A stretch of 37,909 nt of DNA from Acidobacteriota bacterium (lineage in GTDB: Bacteria; Acidobacteriota; Terriglobia; UBA7540): assembly GCA_902812415.1 (NCBI GenBank), contig CADDZJ010000036.1, forward strand, positions 1 through 37,909, given 5' to 3'. The translations under genes and the position numbers were made by a program. Positions 5,186 to 25,881 of the stretch are shown in pieces. The notes under the pieces are model-generated. The model saw nothing but the letters and a program-made list of their open reading frames with translations. It ran no database searches and was not told the DNA's origin. The first letter of the stretch is position 1, and each line of letters starts with the position of its first letter.

Positions 5186-6706
5186 ATGACTCGATATCGG
5201 TTGAGTGCGCTCGCATTATGGATCGGGCTCATTGCATGCCTCAGCGTTCTTTTTCTGACAGGTTGTGGCCATCGCGCTGTGAAGCAGGGCGGGGAAGAAG
5301 CCTCCTCAGCGCCGCCAGGGAGCATGCTGGATGCCGCAAATTTTCAGGGCTCGCTCATCGGCATGCAGTATGAAACCTGGTTCACTTCCAAAAATGCGAC
5401 ATGGGACACGGCGGAAGCGGTTCCCATTTTAGGGAAGTACAGTTCCTATGATGTGAACGTCGTCAAGAAACACGCCGAGTGGTTTCAGAATCTGGGAATC
5501 AACTGGCTTTTGATTGATTGGAGCAACATGCTCTGGATGCACCCTGCCTGGGAGGAGCACACGGGCGCAACTCGGCAGTTGGAGGAAACCACCGAGCTGC
5601 TTTTTGAGACCTACAGCCAGTTGCAGCAGCAGGGTCAGAATCCTCCGAAGATTGTTCTTCTTTTAGGGCTTGAGAACGGGCCACCGGTGGAAAACGGAGT
5701 GGAAAGGTTATCCGGAATCTTCACCTGGATTGACGCGCACTTCCTTGCCATTCCCAAGTATAAGAACCTCTGGCTATACGACCACGGCAAACCTCTGATC
5801 ACGATTTTGTACAATCCTGCCCATCCGTGCGAGCAACTTGAGCAGGTTCTGAAGGCCCATCCTCTTCATGAGCCGAAGTGGAGCATCCGCTGGATGGCTT
5901 CGCAACTGCAACTCAATCATGCCGAGCAGTGCGGCATGTGGTCGTGGATGGATGGAACCATCCAGCAGGTAGTGACAACACGCGACGGCAAGCCGGAAGA
6001 GGTGGTGGTGACGCCCTCGTGTTTTGCGCCGGATGGTTGGCTGGCCCCTGATGCCACGGGAAGGGACAACGGAGCGCCCTATCTCGAAAGCTGGGATGTG
6101 GCGTTCAAGGCCCGCCCCAAGTTTATTCAGATTCATCAATGGAATGAATTCGCCGGACAGAAAGAGGGGCAGGGCTTCGGCCCCAAACATCGTGTTTACG
6201 TCGATGAATACAACCTTCCCTTCAGCGATGACCTGGAACCCACCGAATTGCATGGCTGCGCCTATCGCGGATGCGGCGGGTGGGGATACTACTACATGAA
6301 CCTCACCAAGGCCATCCTCTCGCTCTATCGCGGGGAAACGCCGGATATCACCGTGATGGCGCTTTCCGGTCCTTTCGAGCCTCAAGTGGTGAAAACGACC
6401 AGGCTGCCGCTCACCTGGAAAACCCTGGGTGAGTCGCCGGTCAGCTACACGCTGAAATTGGATGATAAGACGATCAACGATGATCTTCACGGGCAAACCT
6501 ATACGCTTGATCTTCAGGGCGTATCTTCTGGAACGCATCGCGTGACGCTGATCGCAAACGGGGCGCATACTTACTTTGACTTGAATCCTGAGAAACAGAC
6601 TGAGAAATCGGCTGCGCCTTTGCCGGTGACTTCCACCATCGAGTTTCAATATCAGCCGTCGCATTCTGCGCCACATCGTCGGCCCCGGAGTCGCAGGCAT
6701 CGGTAG
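5186..6706 (+). CDS. Exported GH99/WbsX-like glycan-active lipoprotein (A)
   Basis: The start is ATG 5186, because CGGAG lies five bases upstream and the protein then opens with a lipoprotein signal peptide whose lipobox is LTGC (Cys27); the upstream ATG at 5156 would add ten residues and weaken this. The 506-residue protein has a TIM-barrel-like core resembling GH99 enzymes and WbsX-type proteins: MQYETWF, the KYSSYDVNVVKKHAEWF stretch, NWLLIDWSN (probable strand-end acid) and HQWNEF late in the domain. A C-terminal beta-sandwich-like tail (about 390-480) follows the barrel, and the last residues are Arg-rich. It is paralogous to the protein at 9025-10380. The reaction is probably hydrolysis or transfer on an alpha-mannose-type or related glycan at the cell surface; the substrate cannot be told from sequence. 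Confidence 0.75.
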   Translation: MTRYRLSALALWIGLIACLSVLFLTGCGHRAVKQGGEEASSAPPGSMLDAANFQGSLIGMQYETWFTSKNATWDTAEAVPILGKYSSYDVNVVKKHAEWFQNLGINWLLIDWSNMLWMHPAWEEHTGATRQLEETTELLFETYSQLQQQGQNPPKIVLLLGLENGPPVENGVERLSGIFTWIDAHFLAIPKYKNLWLYDHGKPLITILYNPAHPCEQLEQVLKAHPLHEPKWSIRWMASQLQLNHAEQCGMWSWMDGTIQQVVTTRDGKPEEVVVTPSCFAPDGWLAPDATGRDNGAPYLESWDVAFKARPKFIQIHQWNEFAGQKEGQGFGPKHRVYVDEYNLPFSDDLEPTELHGCAYRGCGGWGYYYMNLTKAILSLYRGETPDITVMALSGPFEPQVVKTTRLPLTWKTLGESPVSYTLKLDDKTINDDLHGQTYTLDLQGVSSGTHRVTLIANGAHTYFDLNPEKQTEKSAAPLPVTSTIEFQYQPSHSAPHRRPRSRRHR

Positions 6707-6710
6707 GGGT

Positions 6711-6780
6711 TGTAGCGGCGCTGTCCCCAGCGCCGAGACAATTGAAAAATAAAGCCGGCGGTGAGGAGACCGCCGCTACA
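6711..6780. repeat. Family A miniature inverted-repeat element, copy 2
   Basis: Ends TGTAGCGGCG (6711-6720) and CGCCGCTACA (6771-6780) are exact inverted repeats. The interior has GCTGTCCCCAGCGCC on one side and GGCGGTGAGGAGACCGCC on the other, so each arm can also fold on itself. It starts four bases after the stop of the GH99-like gene and could act as a terminator or RNA processing site. Confidence 0.85.
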
Positions 6781-6852
6781 AGGACGGTTTTTACATAGAC
6801 GACGTCGGCCCCTGCCGCTGGCCCGGCTTCTTGGTCGGCAAAAGGAGGAATC

Positions 6853-7866
6853 TTGTTCAAAAAAACTTTGGGGTGTCTCGCTGCATTCCTGCTTATAGAA
6901 GTGATACTTTGGCCCAGCTATCTTCCCGCGCAGAATCCTACGCCGGTGGATTTGCAGGCGGTGCGTGTGGGCTGCCAGGTGACGGATTACACCATGGAGC
7001 CTGGTCAGGTGGACCAGGCGGTGGTGATCAAGGACCCTGCGGGCGAGCAAACCGTGCTGTTTGATATTACGGAGGGTGGGGCGATTGTTTCGCTCAAGTA
7101 TCGGGGACTCGAACACATTTGGGGATATAACGGCGGCGGCCTTTTGCAAATGGCTTTTCATAATGCCCGAAAGGTTGGGAAGCTGACGGGTGACTATAAT
7201 CCCACGGAGGCGGGCGATGGCTCGGCCATGTCACCGGTCACCGGCGTGGCCTGTCACGGAACGGATTCGGTGGACATCCTGACCATGATGCTGGATTTCA
7301 ATCACAACAATTCTTTTTATCTGAATCCTCTCATTGCCGTCTGGGGCGGGCGGATGAACAGCAGCGTGCCGCTCAGCTATTTTTCTCCGTATACGCTCGA
7401 GACGCGTTCTCGCTGGGTCCGGAATCCATCAGGAGAACCGAAATACTACCTTCGGCTCGATGAACGCTTCACCCACCTGACGGACGAAAAGATCGGGCCG
7501 TTTGATTACGATTTCGCGGACTACGAGCCCTGGGAGTTCAGGTTTCGAGCCGTAAGCCCGGAGCATTGTCCGTGCGCTTCCTCCAGCACTACTTACATGG
7601 CGGGCGGATGGTATCGGGATGAGGCGCGCTCCTCAGGTTTGGCGGTCGCCATGCCGAGCAGCAACTTCCCAGGCCGCAAGGTGAATGGAGGGTTTAACAG
7701 CGACTACATTTGGCGCAATCGCAACTTCCATTTAGAGGCTCAGGAACCCCTGGATGGAATTGCCTCCAAGAGCTTCGTCTGGTATGTGATGGCGGGCTCG
7801 TGGCAGAACGCGCTGAGTTTTGCGCGCAACGTTGCGGGAAGCCGGGGAGGCAGCCATGAAAATTAG
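6853..7866 (+). CDS. Exported mutarotase-like beta-sandwich protein (B)
   Basis: The start is TTG 6853: AGGAGG at 6843-6848 is well placed and the protein opens with a signal peptide (about 1-26, ending LPAQ). The 337-residue product contains a stretch typical of galactose-mutarotase-like beta-supersandwiches, with DPAGEQTVLFDIT (about 57-69), GGAIVSLKYRGLEHIWGY (72-89) and GDYNPTEAGDG (about 109-119). A cysteine pair EHCPC occurs near 238. Such folds occur in sugar epimerases, polysaccharide lyases and carbohydrate-binding parts of glycosidases; no catalytic set could be assigned. Its stop overlaps the next gene by 11 bases, indicating translational coupling with its paralogue. The family is not one I can name. 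Confidence 0.75.
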   Translation: MFKKTLGCLAAFLLIEVILWPSYLPAQNPTPVDLQAVRVGCQVTDYTMEPGQVDQAVVIKDPAGEQTVLFDITEGGAIVSLKYRGLEHIWGYNGGGLLQMAFHNARKVGKLTGDYNPTEAGDGSAMSPVTGVACHGTDSVDILTMMLDFNHNNSFYLNPLIAVWGGRMNSSVPLSYFSPYTLETRSRWVRNPSGEPKYYLRLDERFTHLTDEKIGPFDYDFADYEPWEFRFRAVSPEHCPCASSSTTYMAGGWYRDEARSSGLAVAMPSSNFPGRKVNGGFNSDYIWRNRNFHLEAQEPLDGIASKSFVWYVMAGSWQNALSFARNVAGSRGGSHEN

Positions 7867-8893
7867 TCGCGTAATGGCTTTGCTGCTTGCTGGAGTTTTC
7901 TCCTTTGTTGTGAATCGTGCGGCGGCGCAAAGCTTTCCCAACGTTCGTTGTCATGTCGAGGACTACGCCCTCGACGCCGAAGCCGATTGGCAAGTGCACC
8001 AGCCGCTGCATAGCGTGGAAGCGGTGGTGTTGCGGGATCCGGCTGGTGAGCAGGAGGCTCGCTTTGACCTGATGCACGGGGCCTCGTTGATTTCGCTGAA
8101 GTATCAGGACAAGGAGTTGTTGTTTGGCCACAGCGCGGGCGCCGATGTGAGCATGTATGTGATTCGTCACGGAACTGAAGCCGAGTTGAAGGGTTTAAGC
8201 CCCTACTGGTCGGCCTTTCATCCGGATCAGGGAGGCACCAGCATGCGGGTTCCGGCAACCGTCGCGGGCGTGGGCTGTCGCGGCGAAAGCTCGATGCGGG
8301 CCTTCGCCATGATGATTGACGCCGGGGTCGATAGCGCTTTCGAGCGCGAGCCTCTGATTGGCGTGTGGAAAGGCCGCATCAGTGAGAATTTTCCGCCCGG
8401 ATATTCAACGCCCTACACGATCGAGACCGATGCAAGCTGGGTGCGAAATCCGGGAGGCAGCCCCCACTACTACCTGAAGCTCGATCAGACGGTGGTGAAT
8501 GTGCGGCCTGAAAGCTCAGGCCCCATGCAATGGTTCCTGCTGGGAGCGGCGCCTTGGAAGTTTGATCAGGAAGCAAGCTTCCCGGAGTCTTGCCAGGAAA
8601 AGACCCCTTGCACAAGCCAGAATACGCCCGCCATTGCAGCAGGCCGCTATCAGGACGTAGCCCATACCGAAGGCATTGCGATAGTAGTCTCAACGACTGT
8701 CTGGCATACGCAGGCGCTCTATCTGGGTGAATCTGTGAACCCTTATGGCGGCGCGCCCGTGGTGCGCAAGCGCTCCTTTGGCGTAATTCTGAATCATCCC
8801 CTCAGCGGCCTTACCGGCTTCCATTTCGCCTGGTATTTTTGCGCTGGAAGTTGGAACCAGGCAAAGGATTTTGCCGGGACTGTTCGGAATTAA
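7856..8893 (+). CDS. Exported mutarotase-like beta-sandwich protein (B')
   Basis: The start is ATG 7856, with GGGGAGG at 7844-7850, giving a 345-residue protein with a clean signal peptide ending RAAAQ. An in-frame ATG at 7820 would put charged residues before the signal and is unlikely. It is a paralogue of the preceding protein: shared blocks include DPAGEQEARFDL, SLISLKYQDKELLFGH, VAGVGCRGESS, PLIGVWKGRISENFPPGYSTPYTIET-type sequence, ASWVRNPGGSPHYYLKLD and a closing HFAWYFCAGSWNQAKDFA. The NPTEAGD motif of the first paralogue is replaced by a different loop (FHPDQGG), so the two may bind different ligands. Four cysteines are conserved or paired locally, suiting an extracytoplasmic location. 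Confidence 0.75.
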   Translation: MKISRVMALLLAGVFSFVVNRAAAQSFPNVRCHVEDYALDAEADWQVHQPLHSVEAVVLRDPAGEQEARFDLMHGASLISLKYQDKELLFGHSAGADVSMYVIRHGTEAELKGLSPYWSAFHPDQGGTSMRVPATVAGVGCRGESSMRAFAMMIDAGVDSAFEREPLIGVWKGRISENFPPGYSTPYTIETDASWVRNPGGSPHYYLKLDQTVVNVRPESSGPMQWFLLGAAPWKFDQEASFPESCQEKTPCTSQNTPAIAAGRYQDVAHTEGIAIVVSTTVWHTQALYLGESVNPYGGAPVVRKRSFGVILNHPLSGLTGFHFAWYFCAGSWNQAKDFAGTVRN

Positions 8894-8911
8894 TTGGTCA
8901 GGGTATGGTGC

Positions 8912-9001
8912 TGTAGCGGGAGTGTCCTCACCGCCGGTTTTTTTGATCTATCCGATGATGAGAACCTGCCCTGTATCGGGCGAAGAGACAACACCGCTAC
9001 A
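8912..9001. repeat. Family A miniature inverted-repeat element, copy 3
   Basis: Left end TGTAGCGGGAGTGTCC and right end CACCGCTACA are inverted with mismatches; the left arm carries GTCCTCACCGCCGG. It fills most of the space between the second beta-sandwich gene and the second GH99-like gene. Confidence 0.8.
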
Positions 9002-9024
9002 AAGTGATTTTCACATTGACTACG

Positions 9025-10380
9025 ATGCAACCCCCAACAAAATCGCTGATTCTAGCTTTGGCCACGGCGATTGCCGTGGCTTTCGTCGTCCGGATAACCG
9101 TTTCCGGCGAATCCTCTGCGCAATCGGCTGCAAGTATCACTATTCAATCAAACAGGACTGACATCGGCGAGGGCGAGAACGTGGTGATTTCCGCCATAGC
9201 TCGCAAAGCCGACGGCAAACCGGCAGCGGGCATTCGCCTGCACGCCCAGGTGAATGGAAAGGATTGGGGAGCGGAGTATCTCACCTTGCCTTCCGGCGTA
9301 GCCCATTTGACGCTGCCTTTGCCCGATCGTGGCGAGAACAGCATTGTGGTTACGGATGGGACGCATACTTCCACTCCCGTGACGGTGCAGGTTCATCCTC
9401 GGCATTTCAATATTGTGGATGACCCGAACCACCTGGTGATTATGGAGTACGAAACTTGGTTTGGTCCCGGTTACGCCCAGTGGGGCAAGGAAGAAGCTGT
9501 GCCGGTGCTGGGGCTTTATAGCTCGCTTGATGCGCGCATCCTGCGCCAGCACGCACTCTGGTTTAATGAGATGGGCTTCAACGCGGTGGAACTGGACTGG
9601 ACGAATAATCTCACTCGGCCGTTCCCCAGCCCTCAGGCCAAGGAATGCATTGCGGCCACCCATCTTCTGCTTCAGGTATACTCCACCATGGTGCAACATC
9701 CGAAAGTGCTCTTTCTGGTGGGGCCGGAGCACAATTTGTGGCGAAATCAGAAGGATGTTTATGCCGGGCCGTGGTTTAAAGAGCAACTGGACTTTCTCTA
9801 CGATCATTACATTCATAATCCCCGGTATCAGAACATGATGGTGACTTATCTTGGAAAGCCCCTGATGCTGCTTTACTTGAACGGGCCTCGCATGGGGCCT
9901 CCCCCGGAAATTCACGATCCGCGCTTCACCATTCGCTATGTGGGCGCTTGGTTGCAGACGACGCATCAGGAAAAATACGGCGTCTGGTCGTGGTACGACC
10001 AGACGCCCACTCCTGTTTATTGCCAGGGCCATGTCGAAGCGCTGACAGTTTGCGACGGATATCCTGCCACGAAGCCGCCAATGAAAGGCATGGACTACTG
10101 GCTCTCGCCGGATGCCGGCGGCAAAAATTACGGCGAGACCTATCGGCAACAATGGCACGCTGCGATGAAATACAAGCCGCGCTTCCTGTTTGTCAATCAG
10201 TGGAATGAGTTTGAGCCGCCTGACCAGTACAATGTGAATCTCAGCAATGATATGGAACCTACGCTGATCACCGAACGCGGCGACTCGCGCCCAAGCGGCT
10301 GGGGATTTTATTATCTTGATTTGACCCGCGCGGAGATCGAGGCTTATCGCCACGCGCTTAAATTCAGCGGAAACGATTGA
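9025..10380 (+). CDS. Exported GH99/WbsX-like glycan-active protein with N-terminal Ig-like domain (A')
   Basis: ATG 9025 is preferred over GTG 9004 because it places the hydrophobic signal or anchor (about 7-27) next to the start; GTG would add seven residues encoded partly at the edge of the repeat. The 451-residue protein has an Ig-like beta domain (about 35-125) followed by the same barrel as the protein at 5186: MEYETWF, GLYSSLDARILRQHALWF, NAVELDWTNNL, LGKPLMLLYLN, FVNQWNEFEPP and SGWGFYYLDLTRAE. It lacks a lipobox, so it is either secreted or membrane-anchored. Relative to its paralogue the accessory beta domain is moved from the C- to the N-terminal side. Substrate and reaction are unknown; aspartate of ELDW and glutamate of WNEF are the obvious acidic candidates. 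Confidence 0.75.
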   Translation: MQPPTKSLILALATAIAVAFVVRITVSGESSAQSAASITIQSNRTDIGEGENVVISAIARKADGKPAAGIRLHAQVNGKDWGAEYLTLPSGVAHLTLPLPDRGENSIVVTDGTHTSTPVTVQVHPRHFNIVDDPNHLVIMEYETWFGPGYAQWGKEEAVPVLGLYSSLDARILRQHALWFNEMGFNAVELDWTNNLTRPFPSPQAKECIAATHLLLQVYSTMVQHPKVLFLVGPEHNLWRNQKDVYAGPWFKEQLDFLYDHYIHNPRYQNMMVTYLGKPLMLLYLNGPRMGPPPEIHDPRFTIRYVGAWLQTTHQEKYGVWSWYDQTPTPVYCQGHVEALTVCDGYPATKPPMKGMDYWLSPDAGGKNYGETYRQQWHAAMKYKPRFLFVNQWNEFEPPDQYNVNLSNDMEPTLITERGDSRPSGWGFYYLDLTRAEIEAYRHALKFSGND

Positions 10381-10407: not shown

Positions 10408-10474
10408 TGTAGCGGCGGTGTCCCCCACCGCCGGTTTTTTCAATCCATCCGGCGCTGGAGACAACACCGCTACA
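10408..10474. repeat. Family A miniature inverted-repeat element, copy 4
   Basis: Left end TGTAGCGGCGGTGTCC and right end CACCGCTACA. The left arm contains GGCGGTGTCCCCCACCGCC, a hairpin by itself, followed by TTTTTT, which reads like an intrinsic terminator for the plus-strand genes ending at 10380. Confidence 0.85.
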
Positions 10475-11787: not shown

Positions 11788-13737
11788 ATGATGAAGAAAA
11801 TCATCGCGAATGGTCTTGTCTTGGCGTGTCTTTTGTCGCTCGCGGCTGGCGCTGCGCTCTTTCTTTCGGTGCGAGTGCAATCCCAACTGCTCCCCAATCA
11901 TGCTGCCGGAAATCCTCAGCCTCCCGATCTGGCTCGCGCCAATGAGTCCCGCTCCCCGCTTCTCGCGGGTGATTTTGCCAGCGCTTTGCGAGCGCTGCCT
12001 GCGCAAATTGCCTCTCACCCCGGTGACGCAAGATTCCCTTATTCGCTGGCTACAGTTTACCTTCGTCTGATGCGCTACGCGCAAGGCATTCCATATGCGC
12101 TCGAAGCCGCCAGGGATGACCCTCTGGACGTTCGTTATCGCTGGATGCTGCGGGTTCTGACGATTCTTGCCGGAAAGCCGCTGGATAGCATTCCGCTGCA
12201 ATATCGTCTTGTGGTCCCTTCGCCAGCCCCTTCGCCGGTTCACTTTGTCAATGTCACGCAAAAGGCAGGCGTGGCTAACTTTGGCCTGGGGCGCGGGGTG
12301 GCCTGGGGAGATTTCGACAATGATGGCCGCGATGATCTGCTGGTGTGCGCGGAGCGCGCGCCTTTCCGCCTTTTCCGCAATCTCGGCGGCGGGAAATTCA
12401 AGGAGGTTGCTGAGCAACTGGGCCTTCAAGACCCGGTGGGTCTGGGCTGCTATGGAGCCTATTTCGTTGATTACGACAACGATGGCTTTGAGGATATCTT
12501 CCTGACCAGCAACGGGTGGGGAGGCGATAACCGGCTGTTCCTGTTCCACAATGATCACGGTCGTCGTTTTGAGGATGTCACGGCGAAAGCCGGGCTCGCC
12601 GGGAAGATCAATGCTTTTGGAGCGGCCTGGGCAGACTACGATGGCGACGGATACCCGGACGTGGCCGTTGCCGCGGGGATTGCGCACCCGGAAGGCGACC
12701 GGTTGCGACTCTATCACAATCAGCGCGATGGAACTTTCTCGGAAGTGGGACTCGAAGCCGGGCTTGCGAAGAAGGCTCGCTGGATGTCCGCCTGCTGGAT
12801 TGATGATGACGGTGACGGCCGCCCGGACTTATTCGCCGTGAGTTTCGATTCCGGCTGCGCGCTTTACCATAATCTGGGCCACGGGCGATTTCAGGATGTC
12901 ACCCAAAAGGCAGGACTCCGATGCCCGATTTCAAATTACACCTGCGATGTTCTCGATTACAACAACGATGGGCGACCCGACATTTTCGTTTCAACCTACC
13001 CCGTGGCTCACCTGGAATTGATGATCGCCCACCAGATCAGCGGAGCGCCTGCGCCCCCAAATGATCGGCAGCTTTTGTTTCGGAACAACGGCGACGGCAC
13101 GTTCTCGCGCGCCACTGAAGAAGCAGGCATCATGGGCTTGCACGGCGCCATGGCCTCGCAAGTGGCGGACATTGATAATGACGGCTACCCGGATATCGTG
13201 CTTGGGACTGGCAATCCCGCCTTGGATTGGGCTGAGCCGAAAGCGCTCTATCGCAATGACGGCCGGGGTCATTTTGCCGATATCGCGCAGTCTGCCGGAT
13301 TAATGGATTTTGGAATGTTGCACGGGACAGCGTTTTCTGATTACGACAAGAGCGGTAATCTGAGTTTTTATGGCTCGTTTGGCGGCTTTTACTGGGGTTC
13401 ACGGGAAGAAGCGCGCCTGTTTCGAAACTCAGGATGCAGCAATCACGCGCTGGAAGTGAAGCTGGTCGGGACGAAATCGAACCGCGACGCCATCGGAGCG
13501 CATCTGACGGCTGCTGCCGGAGATCAAAAATATCATGCATGGGTGGATGGCGGGTCAGGTTTTGGCAGCCTGAACTCACGGGTGGTGCATCTGGGCCTGG
13601 GTAGCCACCGGCAGGTTGATTTATTGGAAGTCGATTGGCCAAGCGGCCTTCATCAGCGTTTTGCGCGCATTCCCGCCGATGAGCGGATTGAGATTGTCGA
13701 GGGCGCTTCGAAATTCCATTTGCTGACGAAATTTTGA
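11788..13737 (+). CDS. Exported FG-GAP/ASPIC-UnbV repeat protein
   Basis: ATG 11788 (or 11791) starts a 649-residue protein with a signal peptide or anchor (about 3-28); TTG 11767 is an unlikely alternative. A short TPR-like region (about 55-125) is followed by a beta-propeller of FG-GAP blades with calcium-binding DxDxDG loops: DFDNDGRDD, DYDNDGFED, DYDGDGYPD, DDDGDGRPD, DYNNDGRPD, DIDNDGYPD and a degenerate DYDKSGN. The C-terminal 95 residues form an ASPIC/UnbV domain with GAHLTAAAGDQ, GFGSLNSRVVHLGLG and EVDWPSG. Such proteins are exported and thought to mediate adhesion or ligand binding. It diverges from the TPR gene with only 24 bases between the outer start codons, so the promoters must overlap coding sequence. 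Confidence 0.9.
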   Translation: MMKKIIANGLVLACLLSLAAGAALFLSVRVQSQLLPNHAAGNPQPPDLARANESRSPLLAGDFASALRALPAQIASHPGDARFPYSLATVYLRLMRYAQGIPYALEAARDDPLDVRYRWMLRVLTILAGKPLDSIPLQYRLVVPSPAPSPVHFVNVTQKAGVANFGLGRGVAWGDFDNDGRDDLLVCAERAPFRLFRNLGGGKFKEVAEQLGLQDPVGLGCYGAYFVDYDNDGFEDIFLTSNGWGGDNRLFLFHNDHGRRFEDVTAKAGLAGKINAFGAAWADYDGDGYPDVAVAAGIAHPEGDRLRLYHNQRDGTFSEVGLEAGLAKKARWMSACWIDDDGDGRPDLFAVSFDSGCALYHNLGHGRFQDVTQKAGLRCPISNYTCDVLDYNNDGRPDIFVSTYPVAHLELMIAHQISGAPAPPNDRQLLFRNNGDGTFSRATEEAGIMGLHGAMASQVADIDNDGYPDIVLGTGNPALDWAEPKALYRNDGRGHFADIAQSAGLMDFGMLHGTAFSDYDKSGNLSFYGSFGGFYWGSREEARLFRNSGCSNHALEVKLVGTKSNRDAIGAHLTAAAGDQKYHAWVDGGSGFGSLNSRVVHLGLGSHRQVDLLEVDWPSGLHQRFARIPADERIEIVEGASKFHLLTKF

Positions 13738-13753
13738 CGGGTTGCTGAAAACC

Positions 13754-13823
13754 TGTAGTGGCGGTGTCCTCACCGCCGGCCTTTATTTTCAATCGTTCGG
13801 CGATACAGACACCCGCCGCTACA
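13754..13823. repeat. Family A miniature inverted-repeat element, copy 5
   Basis: Left end TGTAGTGGCG and right end CGCCGCTACA are inverted with one mismatch; the left arm has GGCGGTGTCCTCACCGCCGG. It is preceded by GGTTGCTGAAAACC, a motif also found, inverted, at the border of the element at 37628-37794. A reading frame runs from 13742 across it into the TPR gene, but the repeat explains those codons. Confidence 0.85.
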
Positions 13824-13861
13824 AGAGCGTTCTTCGGCATCCTGCCAGGACGGTGGCGGTC

Positions 13862-14743
13862 ATGCGGTGGAGAAGAGGCTTTGTGGATCGTCGGAAATCT
13901 GAAGGCTTGTCTCGGCCAGCGCAGTGGCTTTGCTGGGTCTTTATGGGTTTGCTTTCGCTTGCGGCAGTCGAAGCGCAAGCCGCGGAAAATCCGCAGTCGT
14001 CCGCGCCTGACGCGGTTTTTGAATTTCCCAATACGCCTAACGGCCCGGAAGCCCGGAGCCGCGCGGAGTTGGATGCGTTCGGCCGGGTGATGGAGTCCAC
14101 CACGGCGGCGGAAGTTATCAGCGCGGCTGAATCTTTTGCCAGTGGCTATCCCGATTCTCAACTGCTGCCCATGGTCCGCCTCCGCGAGATGCGGGCTGAA
14201 ATGGCAGCCAATTCTTATGCAGGCGCGGTTGCCATCGGGCGCGAACTGCTCAGGAAAAATCCTGATAACCTGGAGGCTTTAGTCTTGATGGCGGAAACCC
14301 TGCCGGACTTTCCTCCATCTTATTCCTCAAAGCGAGAGGCCATTCTGGCGGAGGCTGAAAGGGATATTGGCTCTGCTCAGAAACTGTTGCAAGCATTTCA
14401 CCTGCCGCAGGGAGCCTCCACCGCGGAATTCCTGAGGAATAAGTGGCGCCTGGTCGCGTCTCTTGAAGAAGCATCGGCTTTTGTCGATCTGGTTGCCGGT
14501 CGTTATCCCGAGGCCGCGCGGAAATACGAGCAGGCTCTTGAACGTAGCGATGGCCGTTCGACGGTGAGTTTATTTCGCCTGGGGCTGGCCTATTATCGGA
14601 TGGGCGACCGGCAGAAGGCGCGCGCGAAGCTTGAGGAAGCCATGCGGTCAAATTCTCCTCTGATTCGCCAGAAAGCCGCTGCGCTTCTTCGGCAAATCGA
14701 TTCATCCCAGAGCGCAAGTCGCGCATCCGCTGCGAAACCGTGA
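13862..14743 (+). CDS. Exported TPR-repeat protein
   Basis: The start is placed at ATG 13862 because the frame upstream is repeat DNA; a hydrophobic signal segment (about 23-40, ending EAQA) follows a basic N-terminus. The 293-residue protein is mostly alpha-helical, with TPR-like units near LPMVRLREMRAEMAANSYAG, a long central helical stretch, and RLGLAYYRMGDRQKARAKLE near the C-terminus. The long N-terminal region of the signal (22 residues with many Arg) is a little unusual. Its stop codon overlaps the GTG start of the next TPR gene by four bases (GTGA), showing that the two are cotranslated. Function is inferred only as an envelope scaffold. Confidence 0.75.
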   Translation: MRWRRGFVDRRKSEGLSRPAQWLCWVFMGLLSLAAVEAQAAENPQSSAPDAVFEFPNTPNGPEARSRAELDAFGRVMESTTAAEVISAAESFASGYPDSQLLPMVRLREMRAEMAANSYAGAVAIGRELLRKNPDNLEALVLMAETLPDFPPSYSSKREAILAEAERDIGSAQKLLQAFHLPQGASTAEFLRNKWRLVASLEEASAFVDLVAGRYPEAARKYEQALERSDGRSTVSLFRLGLAYYRMGDRQKARAKLEEAMRSNSPLIRQKAAALLRQIDSSQSASRASAAKP

Positions 14744-16743
14744 GGATTATGACCTGGGTCGCACATCGAAGTTTGCTAAGTCTTCTGATGGCGCTGCTTC
14801 TTGTCACGGCATTGCCCAGAGCCAAGGGGCAAAACTCCCCGGACGCTGAGGAGGCTGCGGCTTTTGCGCAGGCCCAACAGGCTGAACGCGCGGGTGATTT
14901 CCAGACGGCGGAACAGATTTATCTTGAAGCTCTGCGCAAGCATCCGGGTGAGATGACGGCGGAATTGAATCTGGGGCTCGCCTATTACATGGATCATCGG
15001 TATGCCGAATCAAGAGAACACCTGCTCGAAGCCCTACGCGTCAATCCGGCCTTGTTTCCTGCGCTCATGGTGGCAGGGGTAGATGAGCTGAAACTCGGCA
15101 AGCCGAAACGCGCCATTCCCCTCTTGCGGCGCGCCCGCACCTTGCGACCCGACGATGAATACGTCAATCACAATCTGGCCAGCGCCGAATATCTGGCGGG
15201 CGATTACCTCGGCGCCTGCGCGGATTATGTGCGGTATTTGCGTCTCACAGGGCGAGTCAGGGACGTGCCTGCGTGGTATGGACTGGGAGAAACATCGCTC
15301 ATATTAAGCCGGCAAGCTTCCGCCCGGCTCGGCATCCAGCCTCCTTCCAATCCCTATCGGTTGCGTCTGCTAGCCATGGTCTACCGCGATCAGCAGGAAT
15401 GGGACCTGGCGATCTCGCGATTGAGACAATTGGAAACCCAGCCTGCTTGGAAGCATTGGGCGGAATTGCAGATCGGGGATATCGAGCTTCATCAAGGTCA
15501 GTTCTCTAAGGCGGCTGCGACATTTCGCCAGGCGCTTAGCGCTCAACCCGATTCAGCCCGCGCCCATTTCGGCCTTGGGGTCAGCCTGCTGTTTCAAGGA
15601 AACATGGCAGAAGCGCTGCCCGAACTGGTTGCCGCCTCGCAAACTCCCTGGCTGTTTGCTCATCCGGAATCGCTGATCGCCGAGGACGGTGCGCGACGGG
15701 AAGTCAAAATTCAGGACCTTGGGCGCGCAAAGAGCGGATCGGCGCTGGTGGATGCATTTCTGAAGCTGATTGGGCAAAGCCTATCGGGGAAAGATAGAGA
15801 GGTGGCGGGCGCTTTCAACCAGGCTTTTCAAGCGGCTTGTGATCGGCAACACGAGGCAAATGAGGCTCGCCTCCAGCAGGCGCTCAGAGATCATTCTTCT
15901 TCAAGAAATTTAATCTCGCTGGCCGACCAGTTTGTAGCTGAAGGCGATGTCCAGTCTGCATCTGACGCTTTGTCACACCTTCAGCCTGAAAGCAAGCCGG
16001 CTTTAATTTTACGGGCCCGCGTTCTTGCAGCCCAACAAGATGCGCTGGGGACGGCTGCAACACTTGTGCGGCTTTGCAAAAATGGGGAGGATCAGAGATC
16101 GCCCGAAACGGACTGGTGGGTTTCAACGCTCTTCCTGAAGGTTGCGGAGCTTACGCTAAACCAGGTTTTGACCCTTGATCCCGGGAGCGTTCAGGCCCAT
16201 TTGCTGCAGGCGCAAATGGACGATGCCCGCAATCAAACGGATGCGGCAATCCACCAATTTCAATTGGCTGCTCAAATGAATCCAAGCGATCCAATCACCC
16301 ATTTCCGGCTGGGTGAAGAACTCTGGCGGGCGGGCCGTTTTCAGGAGGCCATTTCGGCGCTGAAAGACGGGCTTCGCCTTGATTCTCACAACGCGGCCGC
16401 CTACTACCAGATTGGAGATAGCTACTTCAGTCTTGCTGAACCGGCGCGGGCGCTGCCGTTTTTGACCGCGGCTCTGAAGCAGGACCCTGACCTTTATGCC
16501 GCCTATAAAGACTTGGGATCGATCTACTTGAACCAGAATCAATTTCAACGAGCGGCAGAGTTGCTAGAAAAAGTGGCGGCGCGCGACCAGGACGGCTCCG
16601 TGCATTACCTGTTGTTCCGCGCCTATTCGCGGCTGGGGCAAACGACCCGCGCGGCTGCCTGTTTGCAGCAATTCAGGAAGCTCAAGTCTGCGGCTCAGGA
16701 TCGTGACCTTCTGAATGCCAGTCGGCCCGAGCGGGAGGAATGA
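14740..16743 (+). CDS. Large exported TPR-repeat protein
   Basis: GTG 14740 overlaps the previous stop; ATG 14749 is the alternative and would give 664 residues. A signal peptide (about residues 8-31, ending AKGQ) leads a 667-residue solenoid. TPR motifs are clear at the start (AERAGDFQTAEQIYLEALRK, LNLGLAYYMDHRYAESREH, HNLASAEYLAGDYLGA) and at the end (FRLGEELWRAGRFQEAIS, YQIGDSYFSLAEPARALPF, KDLGSIYLNQNQFQRAAE), with weaker repeats between. The protein probably acts outside the cytoplasmic membrane as an assembly or adaptor platform. Its neighbours, another TPR protein and the FG-GAP protein, suggest a shared envelope complex; this is inference from gene order. Confidence 0.85.
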   Translation: MRIMTWVAHRSLLSLLMALLLVTALPRAKGQNSPDAEEAAAFAQAQQAERAGDFQTAEQIYLEALRKHPGEMTAELNLGLAYYMDHRYAESREHLLEALRVNPALFPALMVAGVDELKLGKPKRAIPLLRRARTLRPDDEYVNHNLASAEYLAGDYLGACADYVRYLRLTGRVRDVPAWYGLGETSLILSRQASARLGIQPPSNPYRLRLLAMVYRDQQEWDLAISRLRQLETQPAWKHWAELQIGDIELHQGQFSKAAATFRQALSAQPDSARAHFGLGVSLLFQGNMAEALPELVAASQTPWLFAHPESLIAEDGARREVKIQDLGRAKSGSALVDAFLKLIGQSLSGKDREVAGAFNQAFQAACDRQHEANEARLQQALRDHSSSRNLISLADQFVAEGDVQSASDALSHLQPESKPALILRARVLAAQQDALGTAATLVRLCKNGEDQRSPETDWWVSTLFLKVAELTLNQVLTLDPGSVQAHLLQAQMDDARNQTDAAIHQFQLAAQMNPSDPITHFRLGEELWRAGRFQEAISALKDGLRLDSHNAAAYYQIGDSYFSLAEPARALPFLTAALKQDPDLYAAYKDLGSIYLNQNQFQRAAELLEKVAARDQDGSVHYLLFRAYSRLGQTTRAAACLQQFRKLKSAAQDRDLLNASRPEREE

Positions 16744-23811: not shown

Positions 23812-25881
23812 TCACTCGTTCCCGCTGGCCCACTTTTTCCAAAGAGCGGCGTGGGTAAGCATCCTGATGTAGATTCCTCCCACCACGGGCCGCGCCTGGA
23901 ATCCCACCTGCGTGCCATCCACCGTCCAGTACCAGTCGCTGAGCGGCACGCGGGTGGGAGTGGCATTGGCGAAGTGGTAGAGTCCTGAAAAGAGCGAGCG
24001 AAAAAGGATATCCGATTCTGCCAGGCTCGCAGACCAGGCTTCCCAGTCGAGCTTGGTGAAAGCCGAGCGGCTATCCAGGGGGAAACCGAAAGCTGTTGCT
24101 TGTTTCCGGTAATAAGTCAGTTCCTGGCGGGCAAGACTCTCCGGAAACAGCTTCAATCCCAGCACGCGATCCCAGACCAGGTTGTACTTCTGGCTCCAGG
24201 TGTGAGGACGATCAAAGGCGAGGCGCGTGTGCCCGGCATCGGCAGCCATTCGCATCCATTTCAAAGCATAGTCTTCGGCGGTTTTGCGATACGTTTCCGC
24301 CGTATGTTTTTTGCCCAGCATCCCGGCCAGCATCGCATAGGAACCAAGCGCCTCAATGGCTTTTAGAGAGAGGTTGGCATTGTGCGCGAGCAGCCCGGTG
24401 AAATCATCGGTACAAAGCTGATTGCCGGGATCAAGACCATGGGCTTTGAGGTAGTCTGCCCATTTCGAAAGCAGTGGCCAATATCGGTTCGCAAAGGAAG
24501 CATTCCCTTCCGCTTTCGCAATGGCGGCGATCATCAGAAGCATATTCCCGGATTCTTCCACCGGCATACTCTCCATTTTGGAAGGCACGCGGGCGTTATC
24601 GATAGGATAAGTTCCGAGATCGTGCGGGGCGTAGGGATAAGGCCATCGATTCGACCGGGCGTAGTCGAGCAGAGGGATGAGCGAATATTCCAGAAGCTTG
24701 GGATTCAGCAAAAGCAGGATGGGCGCTTCAGGATAGATCACGTCGGCCGTCTGAGCGCAGCCGCAACTGGAGATTTCTTTCAGGAACATCAAAGGCTCAT
24801 CATTCGGCCCGAGTGCCAGCTTATTGGCGGCAAAGGCTTGTCGATAGGCGAGAGCGGCAACTTCAGCATATGGCTCGCCGCCAGTTCGCGTAAGGTCTGC
24901 CATCAGTTTCTGGTCAAAGGATTTGCTGCGCGCGTTCAAGGGGTTGTAGTCATGTTCCGCGCTTTCCAGAAGATCGCTGATTTTGGCATTTTGGTGTTGC
25001 CAGTAGGGACGCAAGCGCGTGTGAAAATATTCGATAGGGTAGATTTCATCGTAGGCCAGAATCAGGTGACGCGAGACAGCGGAGCGTCCGACGTTGCCAA
25101 GATTGAACGCAAAGGCGATTACAGGCCAGTGATCATTTGCAGGGCGTGGCATGCGCGTGTCGCTTGTAGCCGGCAGGCTGCCCGTTGAGGTAAAAGCCTG
25201 AATTGCAGCTCTTTCGTCGAGCACCGCGTTCTGCGTTGACTCGCTCTGCGGCGCGGCGACATAAAGATAACCCCAGTCGATGCGGATACGATCTCCAGCC
25301 TGCTTCAAGATTGGCTGGTCGGCCGTTCCCATCCTCAGAACGCTCAGATTCGTCGCGCTGGCCGCGCCCCAGACTACTTTTTCGTCCGGAGTGTTCACCA
25401 CCAACTCGGCTGTATTGTCGTAATAGATTGCAACCTGGTGACGCTTGCCATCCGTTGAACGCGCTTCCCAGGCGAGGTAGGTGACAGGGCGAGCCAGCAC
25501 ATCCAAGTCCTGAGGGAGATCAGGAGTTAGAAAGACGAGTTGAAGCCGGACGCCGCCTGCCTGGAATGCATAAACCGTGCGCGTGGGAAGCACGTTAAGG
25601 TTCAGTTGCCGCGCGGGAGTCACCTTGGAAGGCTCATTACCCATAATGCGATAGGTTTTGCCGTCCACTCTTACGAGGCTTTGCATCGTCATGCGCTCAC
25701 CGGTCCAGTGCCGCGTCGCGTCATAAGTTAAATGGTCTGCAAACGACCAGATGCTGAAATAGGGATCGACAGCGATCAAGGGGACGGCAGGCGGCCGGAA
25801 CGCGTTCTCGGCTGATCGCGCCGAGACGAAGGCGCAAGTTATGAAAAAAGGAACCATGAACGCGCGCAGTCGAAATTTCAT
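23812..25881 (-). CDS. Secreted glutaminase-A-like protein (DUF4964/5127/4965/1793 family)
   Basis: A 689-residue protein with a signal peptide (about 5-23, ending ARSAE). The layout matches fungal and bacterial glutaminase A relatives: N-terminal region with RPPAVPLIAVDPYFSIWS (about 29-46) and HWTGERMTMQSLVRVDGK, a beta-rich middle with VAIYYDNTAELVVN, then an (alpha/alpha)6-barrel-like half with AAIAKAEGNASFANRYWPLL, NANLSLKAIEALGSYAML and, near the end, SDWYWTVDGTQVGFQARPVVGG. These proteins are secreted and the characterised ones release glutamate from glutamine, but many bacterial members have unknown substrates. AGGAG lies before ATG. It sits between the response regulator and the ABC genes on the same strand. 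Confidence 0.85.
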   Translation of the reverse strand: MKFRLRAFMVPFFITCAFVSARSAENAFRPPAVPLIAVDPYFSIWSFADHLTYDATRHWTGERMTMQSLVRVDGKTYRIMGNEPSKVTPARQLNLNVLPTRTVYAFQAGGVRLQLVFLTPDLPQDLDVLARPVTYLAWEARSTDGKRHQVAIYYDNTAELVVNTPDEKVVWGAASATNLSVLRMGTADQPILKQAGDRIRIDWGYLYVAAPQSESTQNAVLDERAAIQAFTSTGSLPATSDTRMPRPANDHWPVIAFAFNLGNVGRSAVSRHLILAYDEIYPIEYFHTRLRPYWQHQNAKISDLLESAEHDYNPLNARSKSFDQKLMADLTRTGGEPYAEVAALAYRQAFAANKLALGPNDEPLMFLKEISSCGCAQTADVIYPEAPILLLLNPKLLEYSLIPLLDYARSNRWPYPYAPHDLGTYPIDNARVPSKMESMPVEESGNMLLMIAAIAKAEGNASFANRYWPLLSKWADYLKAHGLDPGNQLCTDDFTGLLAHNANLSLKAIEALGSYAMLAGMLGKKHTAETYRKTAEDYALKWMRMAADAGHTRLAFDRPHTWSQKYNLVWDRVLGLKLFPESLARQELTYYRKQATAFGFPLDSRSAFTKLDWEAWSASLAESDILFRSLFSGLYHFANATPTRVPLSDWYWTVDGTQVGFQARPVVGGIYIRMLTHAALWKKWASGNE

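Follow-up and report, generated by a model that had tools for sequence, protein, structure and literature searches.

The stretch of DNA analysed here, which we call the window (37,909 nucleotides of an acidobacterial genome), carries four genes for exported proteins in the mirror order A-B-B'-A', wherein two paralogous glycosidase-like proteins flank a second pair of paralogues. This arrangement raises two linked questions, namely what the four proteins might do together and how their symmetric order came about. The original prediction had viewed them as GH99/WbsX-like and mutarotase-like proteins of a potentially undescribed extracellular polysaccharide processing or modification system, which may have emerged through the duplication of a two-gene unit followed by rearrangement, or else through stepwise duplication.

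Organization and conservation of the cluster

All four reading frames are open on the forward strand, at the positions and in the order first proposed for them, and are followed by a set of genes that figures in the comparison below:

A, 5186..6706, + strand: lipoprotein with a GH99-like (beta/alpha)8 barrel and a C-terminal beta domain, 506 aa
B, 6853..7866, + strand: secreted protein of an unnamed family, clade B of a putative obligate pair, 337 aa, TTG start
B', 7856..8893, + strand: secreted paralogue of B, clade B', 345 aa, overlapping B by 11 bp
A', 9025..10380, + strand: N-terminal Ig-like domain and GH99-like barrel, without the C-terminal domain of A, 451 aa
10780..11763, - strand: TPR protein, adjoining the cluster in the related genome G002 too, with a homologue after the A gene of G012
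11788..13737, + strand: FG-GAP/UnbV-ASPIC (CRTAC1-type) protein, kept beside the cluster in G002
13742..14743, + strand: TPR protein, retained at this place in G002 and also occurring close to A in G012
14740..16743, + strand: TPR-repeat protein, kept beside the cluster in G002

Export of all four cluster proteins, as originally proposed, is borne out by the lipobox of A (..LFLTGC) and, by inspection, by the hydrophobic N-termini of B, B' and A', which resemble those of secreted or anchored proteins; that of A' could be either a signal anchor or a signal peptide. The TTG start codon of B is preceded by AAAGGAGG and the ATG of B' by GGGGAGG, while A' has a possible alternative start at the GTG at position 9004. 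Given the 11 bp overlap between B and B' and the presence of a separate GGGGAGG before the latter, the two are probably translated together. The large antisense ORFs found no support and are frame echoes. Both pairs consist of diverged paralogues: A and A' share 33% identity over 345 columns (E 1e-53) and B and B' 34% over 315 columns (E 1e-60). The altered NPTEAGD loop that had been noticed in the second pair is real and, moreover, clade-specific, reading DYNPTEAGD in B and AFHPDQGGT in B', and it divides the two clades in all members.

We recovered the same set on contig C57 of G002, a genome of another species of the same genus, where the order A-B-B'-A'-TPR(-)-UnbV-TPR-TPR is repeated with an Oar-type outer-membrane receptor encoded directly upstream of A. 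The four cluster proteins are 67-77% identical between the two genomes, with dN values of 0.16-0.24 against a dS near saturation. This low dN relative to dS, together with the kept gene order, indicates that on sequence evidence the cluster genes are real and under purifying selection. It also answers the doubt, raised along with the original prediction, that the homologues might never occur together elsewhere, since G002 carries the whole set. Homologues of two of the window's TPR genes further follow an A gene in G012, a member of the same family. Elsewhere in the window, positions 23812-25881 encode a GtaA/DUF5127/DUF4964 protein (glutaminase A-like six-hairpin) that is unrelated to the cluster and adjoins genes for an ABC transporter, an FtsX/MacB protein and a CrtC-lipocalin protein.

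B and B' as an ancient pair

The family to which B and B' belong is rare: scanning about 85,000 genomes recovered only 9 loci, G002 among them, which with the window make 10. In our sample of 396 genomes of the window's phylum it occurs in the window's own genome only; 296 genomes of the phylum of the Bacteroidota locus L039 yielded no member beyond the genome of L039 itself, and neither plasmids nor IMG/VR yielded a relative. In every one of the 10 loci, which span three phyla, B and B' adjoin each other, in either order: B-B' in the window, G002, L038, L039 and L043, and B'-B in L040, L041, L042, L044 and L045. In three of the latter (L040, L042 and L044) the two form a single open frame, and in L045, which is cut by the contig end, the tail of B' runs in-frame into B, with a frameshift further on. 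In a phylogenetic tree B and B' form separate clades (support 100/100), each of which holds members from both Acidobacteriota and Bacteroidota/Ignavibacteriota. Thus, the strict pairing, the fusions and the separate cross-phylum clades suggest two subunits of one machine rather than a recent tandem copy: judged by sequence and gene order, B and B' form an obligate pair of ancient origin, and most likely make up a single functional unit of two halves that would operate as a heterodimer, or as a single chain where they are fused. As G452, G453 and G454 encode the B pair without any A-family gene, this unit is not dependent on A.

The placement of the pair outside any curated family holds up: none of 18 B/B' members matched a Pfam profile, including that of the aldose 1-epimerases (PF01263), at E-values up to 10. 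The characterization of these proteins as mutarotase-like, on the other hand, is unproven. A profile of B recovered hexose-6-phosphate mutarotase from the PDB (2ciq) at a weak E of 0.029, in the company of other weak or chance-level matches such as Nup43 (E 0.004) and methylamine dehydrogenase (0.14), and its profile-profile alignment with GalM covers only 36 columns with a probability of 8.5% (E 0.004 in a single comparison). An AlphaFold2 model of B computed from a 4-row alignment reached a pLDDT of 31, too low for a fold assignment. Hence, the aldose-epimerase resemblance, which consists of a short N-terminal motif and these weak statistics, remains an unproven indication of fold. B displays numerous invariant polar residues, which include H103, D114, D122, N150, H151, R205, H208, E212, D220 and H293.

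A and A' as relatives of GH99

Of the two families invoked for A and A' by the original prediction, the resemblance to GH99 stands, while that to WbsX found no Pfam support. A profile of the A family matched human MANEA with E 1.5e-8, and a structural model of A (pLDDT 74, pTM 0.78) retrieved GH99 structures at ranks 1-28 of a fold search (best Z 16.5, 3.8 A over 266 residues), with GH71 next (Z 14.6); none of the 14 A-family members matched the WbsX profile (PF14307) at E-values up to 10. The invariant residues of these 14 members include D111, E321 (within WNE[FW]), D349 and E351. Both GH71 and GH99 are characterized by a [D/E]xxE catalytic dyad, the first residue of which is typically Asp in GH71 (PMC12394665). 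In the A family the first catalytic residue is Glu in all 14 members, with no GH71-type Asp in any of them, and there is no acid at +3 in 13 of the 14, which thus lack the GH99-type ExxE dyad; the exception is G002_C128, with a Glu at +3 (WNEFAEQYN). Because of the reading in this member, D340 of A, the acidic residue of a D/E-x-Y-N motif, may represent the second acid displaced by a variable-length loop, in a region where the model is of low confidence (pLDDT under 50 for residues 320-366, which cover the catalytic region). The Pfam GH99 profile (PF16317) scores A at 16.2 bits against a gathering cut-off of 33, does not match A' and attains a best E of 0.004 among the 14 members; the GH71 profile does not match A. 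The absence of the second dyad acid at +3 makes the A family a sister group of GH99 and, together with the sub-cut-off score, led us to reject membership in GH99 proper. Both A and A' are predicted to be catalytically active glycosidases.

Their domain architectures point to a shared history. A Bacteroidota relative in G451 (631 aa) combines an A'-type N-terminal domain and an A-type C-terminal domain around the same barrel; thus, A and A' both seem to derive by truncation from a single ancestor with three domains, of which A would have lost the N-terminal Ig-like domain and A' the C-terminal beta domain. The window's own genome additionally codes for a third A paralogue on contig C45 (L029:8076-9586), which is about 60% identical to A and falls into two separate frames of 375 and 173 aa, probably as a frameshifted pseudogene or through an assembly error. 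Its neighbors encode a nucleoside hydrolase, an FGE-sulfatase-domain protein, a PfkB kinase and a ureide-permease-like transporter.

Origin of the mirror order

The symmetric order and the similar divergence within the two pairs (both about 33-34% identical) are what one would expect had an A-B unit been duplicated, in which case the arrangement would carry no functional meaning. We consider this origin highly improbable, as the divergence of B from B' is older than the dispersal of the pair over three phyla and the two kinds of gene have independent distributions: the B pair of G452-G454 lacks A and A', A-family genes occur without B in G012 and G034, as does A' in G016 and G029, and none of the genomes found has an isolated A-B or B'-A' unit. 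Accordingly, the symmetric arrangement fits a B pair flanked by an A-type gene on either side better than the copying of a unit.

REP/BIME-like intergenic palindromes of the TGTAGCGGCGGTGTCC...GGACACCGCCGCTACA type are present in the window at 6708-6785, 10408-10465 and 13754-13820, with what seems to be a more divergent copy at about 8908-9003. Allowing at most one mismatch, the pattern has 195 matches in the 4.8 Mb genome, as against 2 for the reversed control pattern. We rejected these repeats as the source of the mirror order, since in G002, which displays the same order, the cluster has a single repeat-like site nearby, located between A and B.

Gene neighborhoods of relatives

The richest context for these genes is seen in the Bacteroidota contig L039, where five A-family genes are situated within about 20 kb of a B-B' pair that is accompanied by genes for a TonB receptor, F5/8-type proteins and a GH78 rhamnosidase. 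There, one A-family gene is directly preceded by a gene for L-rhamnose isomerase (above the NCBIfam cut-off), with a rhamnulokinase-like gene further upstream. The locus of G451 has rhaA and a rhaB-like gene. Linkages of this kind include rhaA preceding the A-family genes in G455; GH78 genes adjoining A-family genes in G450 and G455; the N-terminal part of a GH78 enzyme following B' in L038; and, in G012, the series Oar receptor, A, TPR, TPR and GH106 alpha-L-rhamnosidase. GH78 genes lie in the flanks of the B pair in L039, L042 and L045 (0.034 expected, P 6e-6), a P value that overstates the independence of loci that are few and partly related. The A family is itself associated with the B pair, strong members being encoded in 4 of the 7 acidobacteria with a B pair as against 0 of the 395 other acidobacterial genomes sampled (p 3e-8, or 2e-6 with the window's genus counted once, the same relatedness of the loci again overstating their independence). 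Overall, the loci of the relatives feature TonB receptors, glycosidases of the GH78, GH106, GH2 and GH51 families and rhamnose catabolism, and a TonB/Oar-type receptor lies beside the glycosidases in G002, G012 and G451; none was found in the window. Among the neighbors scanned we noticed no alpha-mannan enzymes and found no glycosyltransferase or polymer export gene. Thus, the rhamnosidase and rhamnose-pathway neighbors agree in pointing to a rhamnose-containing glycan for the relatives. A literature search turned up no publication that connects GH99 with rhamnose loci in such a manner.

Certain other neighbors recur. Genes for URO-D proteins, closest to the MtaA/CmuA-type corrinoid methyltransferases, are found near the B pair in two phyla (L037:3-1118 and L039:14789-15898), which could hint at O-methylated sugars or be a coincidence. 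Likewise, enolase-superfamily genes resembling sugar-acid dehydratases recur near the B pairs of L041, L042 and L044, along with a DHDPS-type aldolase in L041 and an SMP-30-like protein in L042. None of these reaches an NCBIfam cut-off, and the enolase-superfamily and aldolase neighbors could not be assigned to rhamnonate, their best NCBIfam scores lying far under the cut-offs.

Proposed function and alternatives

By analogy to these relatives, we propose that the cluster encodes an exported module that degrades a rhamnose-containing polysaccharide outside the cytoplasm, a reading to which we assign a probability of about one half. Under this proposal, the lipid-fixed A and the secreted or anchored A' would both cut the rhamnose-containing polymer as GH99-like glycosidases; B and B' would act jointly on the polymer or its products, either as a two-part enzyme or as a binding or epimerising partner; and other enzymes of the genome, such as several GH78 proteins, would finish the breakdown. 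GH78 genes are common in such bacteria, and they are found elsewhere in both the window's own genome and that of G002. Several observations run against this proposal: neither in the window nor in G002 did the surroundings of the cluster yield a rhamnosidase gene or one of rhamnose catabolism, the B pairs of G452-G454 lack the A family, the C45 paralogue of A keeps company with nucleoside hydrolase, PfkB kinase and ureide-permease-like genes, the catalytic region of the A model is of low confidence, and the model of B yielded no fold. A more specific version, in which B/B' constitute a new family of heterodimeric (in some lineages single-chain) polysaccharide-active enzymes that, with a GH99-like family of rebuilt catalytic dyad, provide an undescribed route to a rhamnose-containing glycan, is tentative and on present evidence somewhat doubtful.

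The position of GH99 as the best fold match and the invariance of the first catalytic Glu would equally suit A and A' being true GH99 endo-alpha-mannanases, with the cluster directed against alpha-mannans, as the original prediction had entertained, and the rhamnose-related neighbors belonging to other systems. The sub-cut-off Pfam score and the missing +3 acid are at odds with this, as are the rhamnosidases and rhamnose isomerase around the relatives, with no alpha-mannan enzymes noticed among the neighbors scanned; we deem it decidedly improbable, and judged by those neighbors an alpha-mannan is a less likely substrate than a rhamnose-containing glycan. It is also conceivable that the substrate is extracellular polysaccharide of the cell itself, which the module would trim or modify, and not a foreign glycan. 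The membrane anchoring of A and the window's lack of transporter or sugar catabolic genes around the cluster are compatible with such a role, and the WbsX resemblance first suggested for A would have fitted it too. However, no A-family member matches WbsX in Pfam, the neighbors scanned offer no glycosyltransferase or polymer export gene, and the relatives reside in loci of a degradative character, rendering this role improbable as well. As for B and B', they might be no enzymes at all and instead a paired carbohydrate-binding or structural partner of the outer glycosidases: the lack of a catalytic family match in 18 members and the retention of the two as a pair or fusion would suit a binding scaffold, but the many invariant polar residues of B exceed what a plain scaffold would need, and we view this option as unlikely, though worth keeping in mind. 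We hence favor degradation of a rhamnose-containing polysaccharide.

Significance and relation to known systems

The setting of these genes is of a known type, the glycan degradation locus; the new parts are the unnamed obligate pair and a group that is related to GH99 and lacks its standard dyad. The B/B' pair, rare and without a curated family, combines strict pairing and fusion across three phyla, which makes the heterodimer a testable proposition, and the A family, in retaining one catalytic Glu and not the ExxE dyad, would show how the GH99/GH71 fold alters its catalytic pair. Both would enlarge the small repertoire of enzymes that act on rhamnose-containing polysaccharides.

With GH99 enzymes such as BxGH99 and human MANEA, the A family shares the (beta/alpha)8 barrel, the conserved N-E-[FW] that contains the first dyad Glu and the profile match on MANEA; it differs in the lack of a second dyad Glu at +3, in place of which there is a variable-length loop followed by the acidic D/E-x-Y-N, and in a further invariant motif, S-x-D-x-E, as well as in extra beta domains at the N- or C-terminus and a sub-cut-off Pfam score. 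The GH71 alpha-1,3-glucanases (e.g., AnGH71C and Agn1) display a related barrel against which a C-terminal beta domain packs, and the A model aligns to them over residues 57-492; unlike them, the A family has Glu rather than Asp as the first residue, lacks the ExxE spacing and has no Pfam match. In the case of the aldose 1-epimerase/galactose mutarotase-like superfamily (PF01263), the GG-A-I-V-S-L-x-Y-x-G-x-E stretch of B resembles its N-terminal motif, and the 2ciq match (E 0.029) falls in that register; B/B' are, unlike that superfamily, exported, paired and fused, with no Pfam match and profile-profile probabilities of 8.5% or less. Finally, Verrucomicrobiota that consume rhamnose- and fucose-containing polysaccharides are described as deploying GH78 and GH106 enzymes, sulfatases and microcompartments (PMC8857213). 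The term GH99 is absent from that paper, and we saw neither the B/B' pair nor a GH99-like set among the components it describes; what the loci of the relatives hold in common with those consumers are rhamnosidases, sulfatases, GH2 enzymes and the rhamnose pathway.
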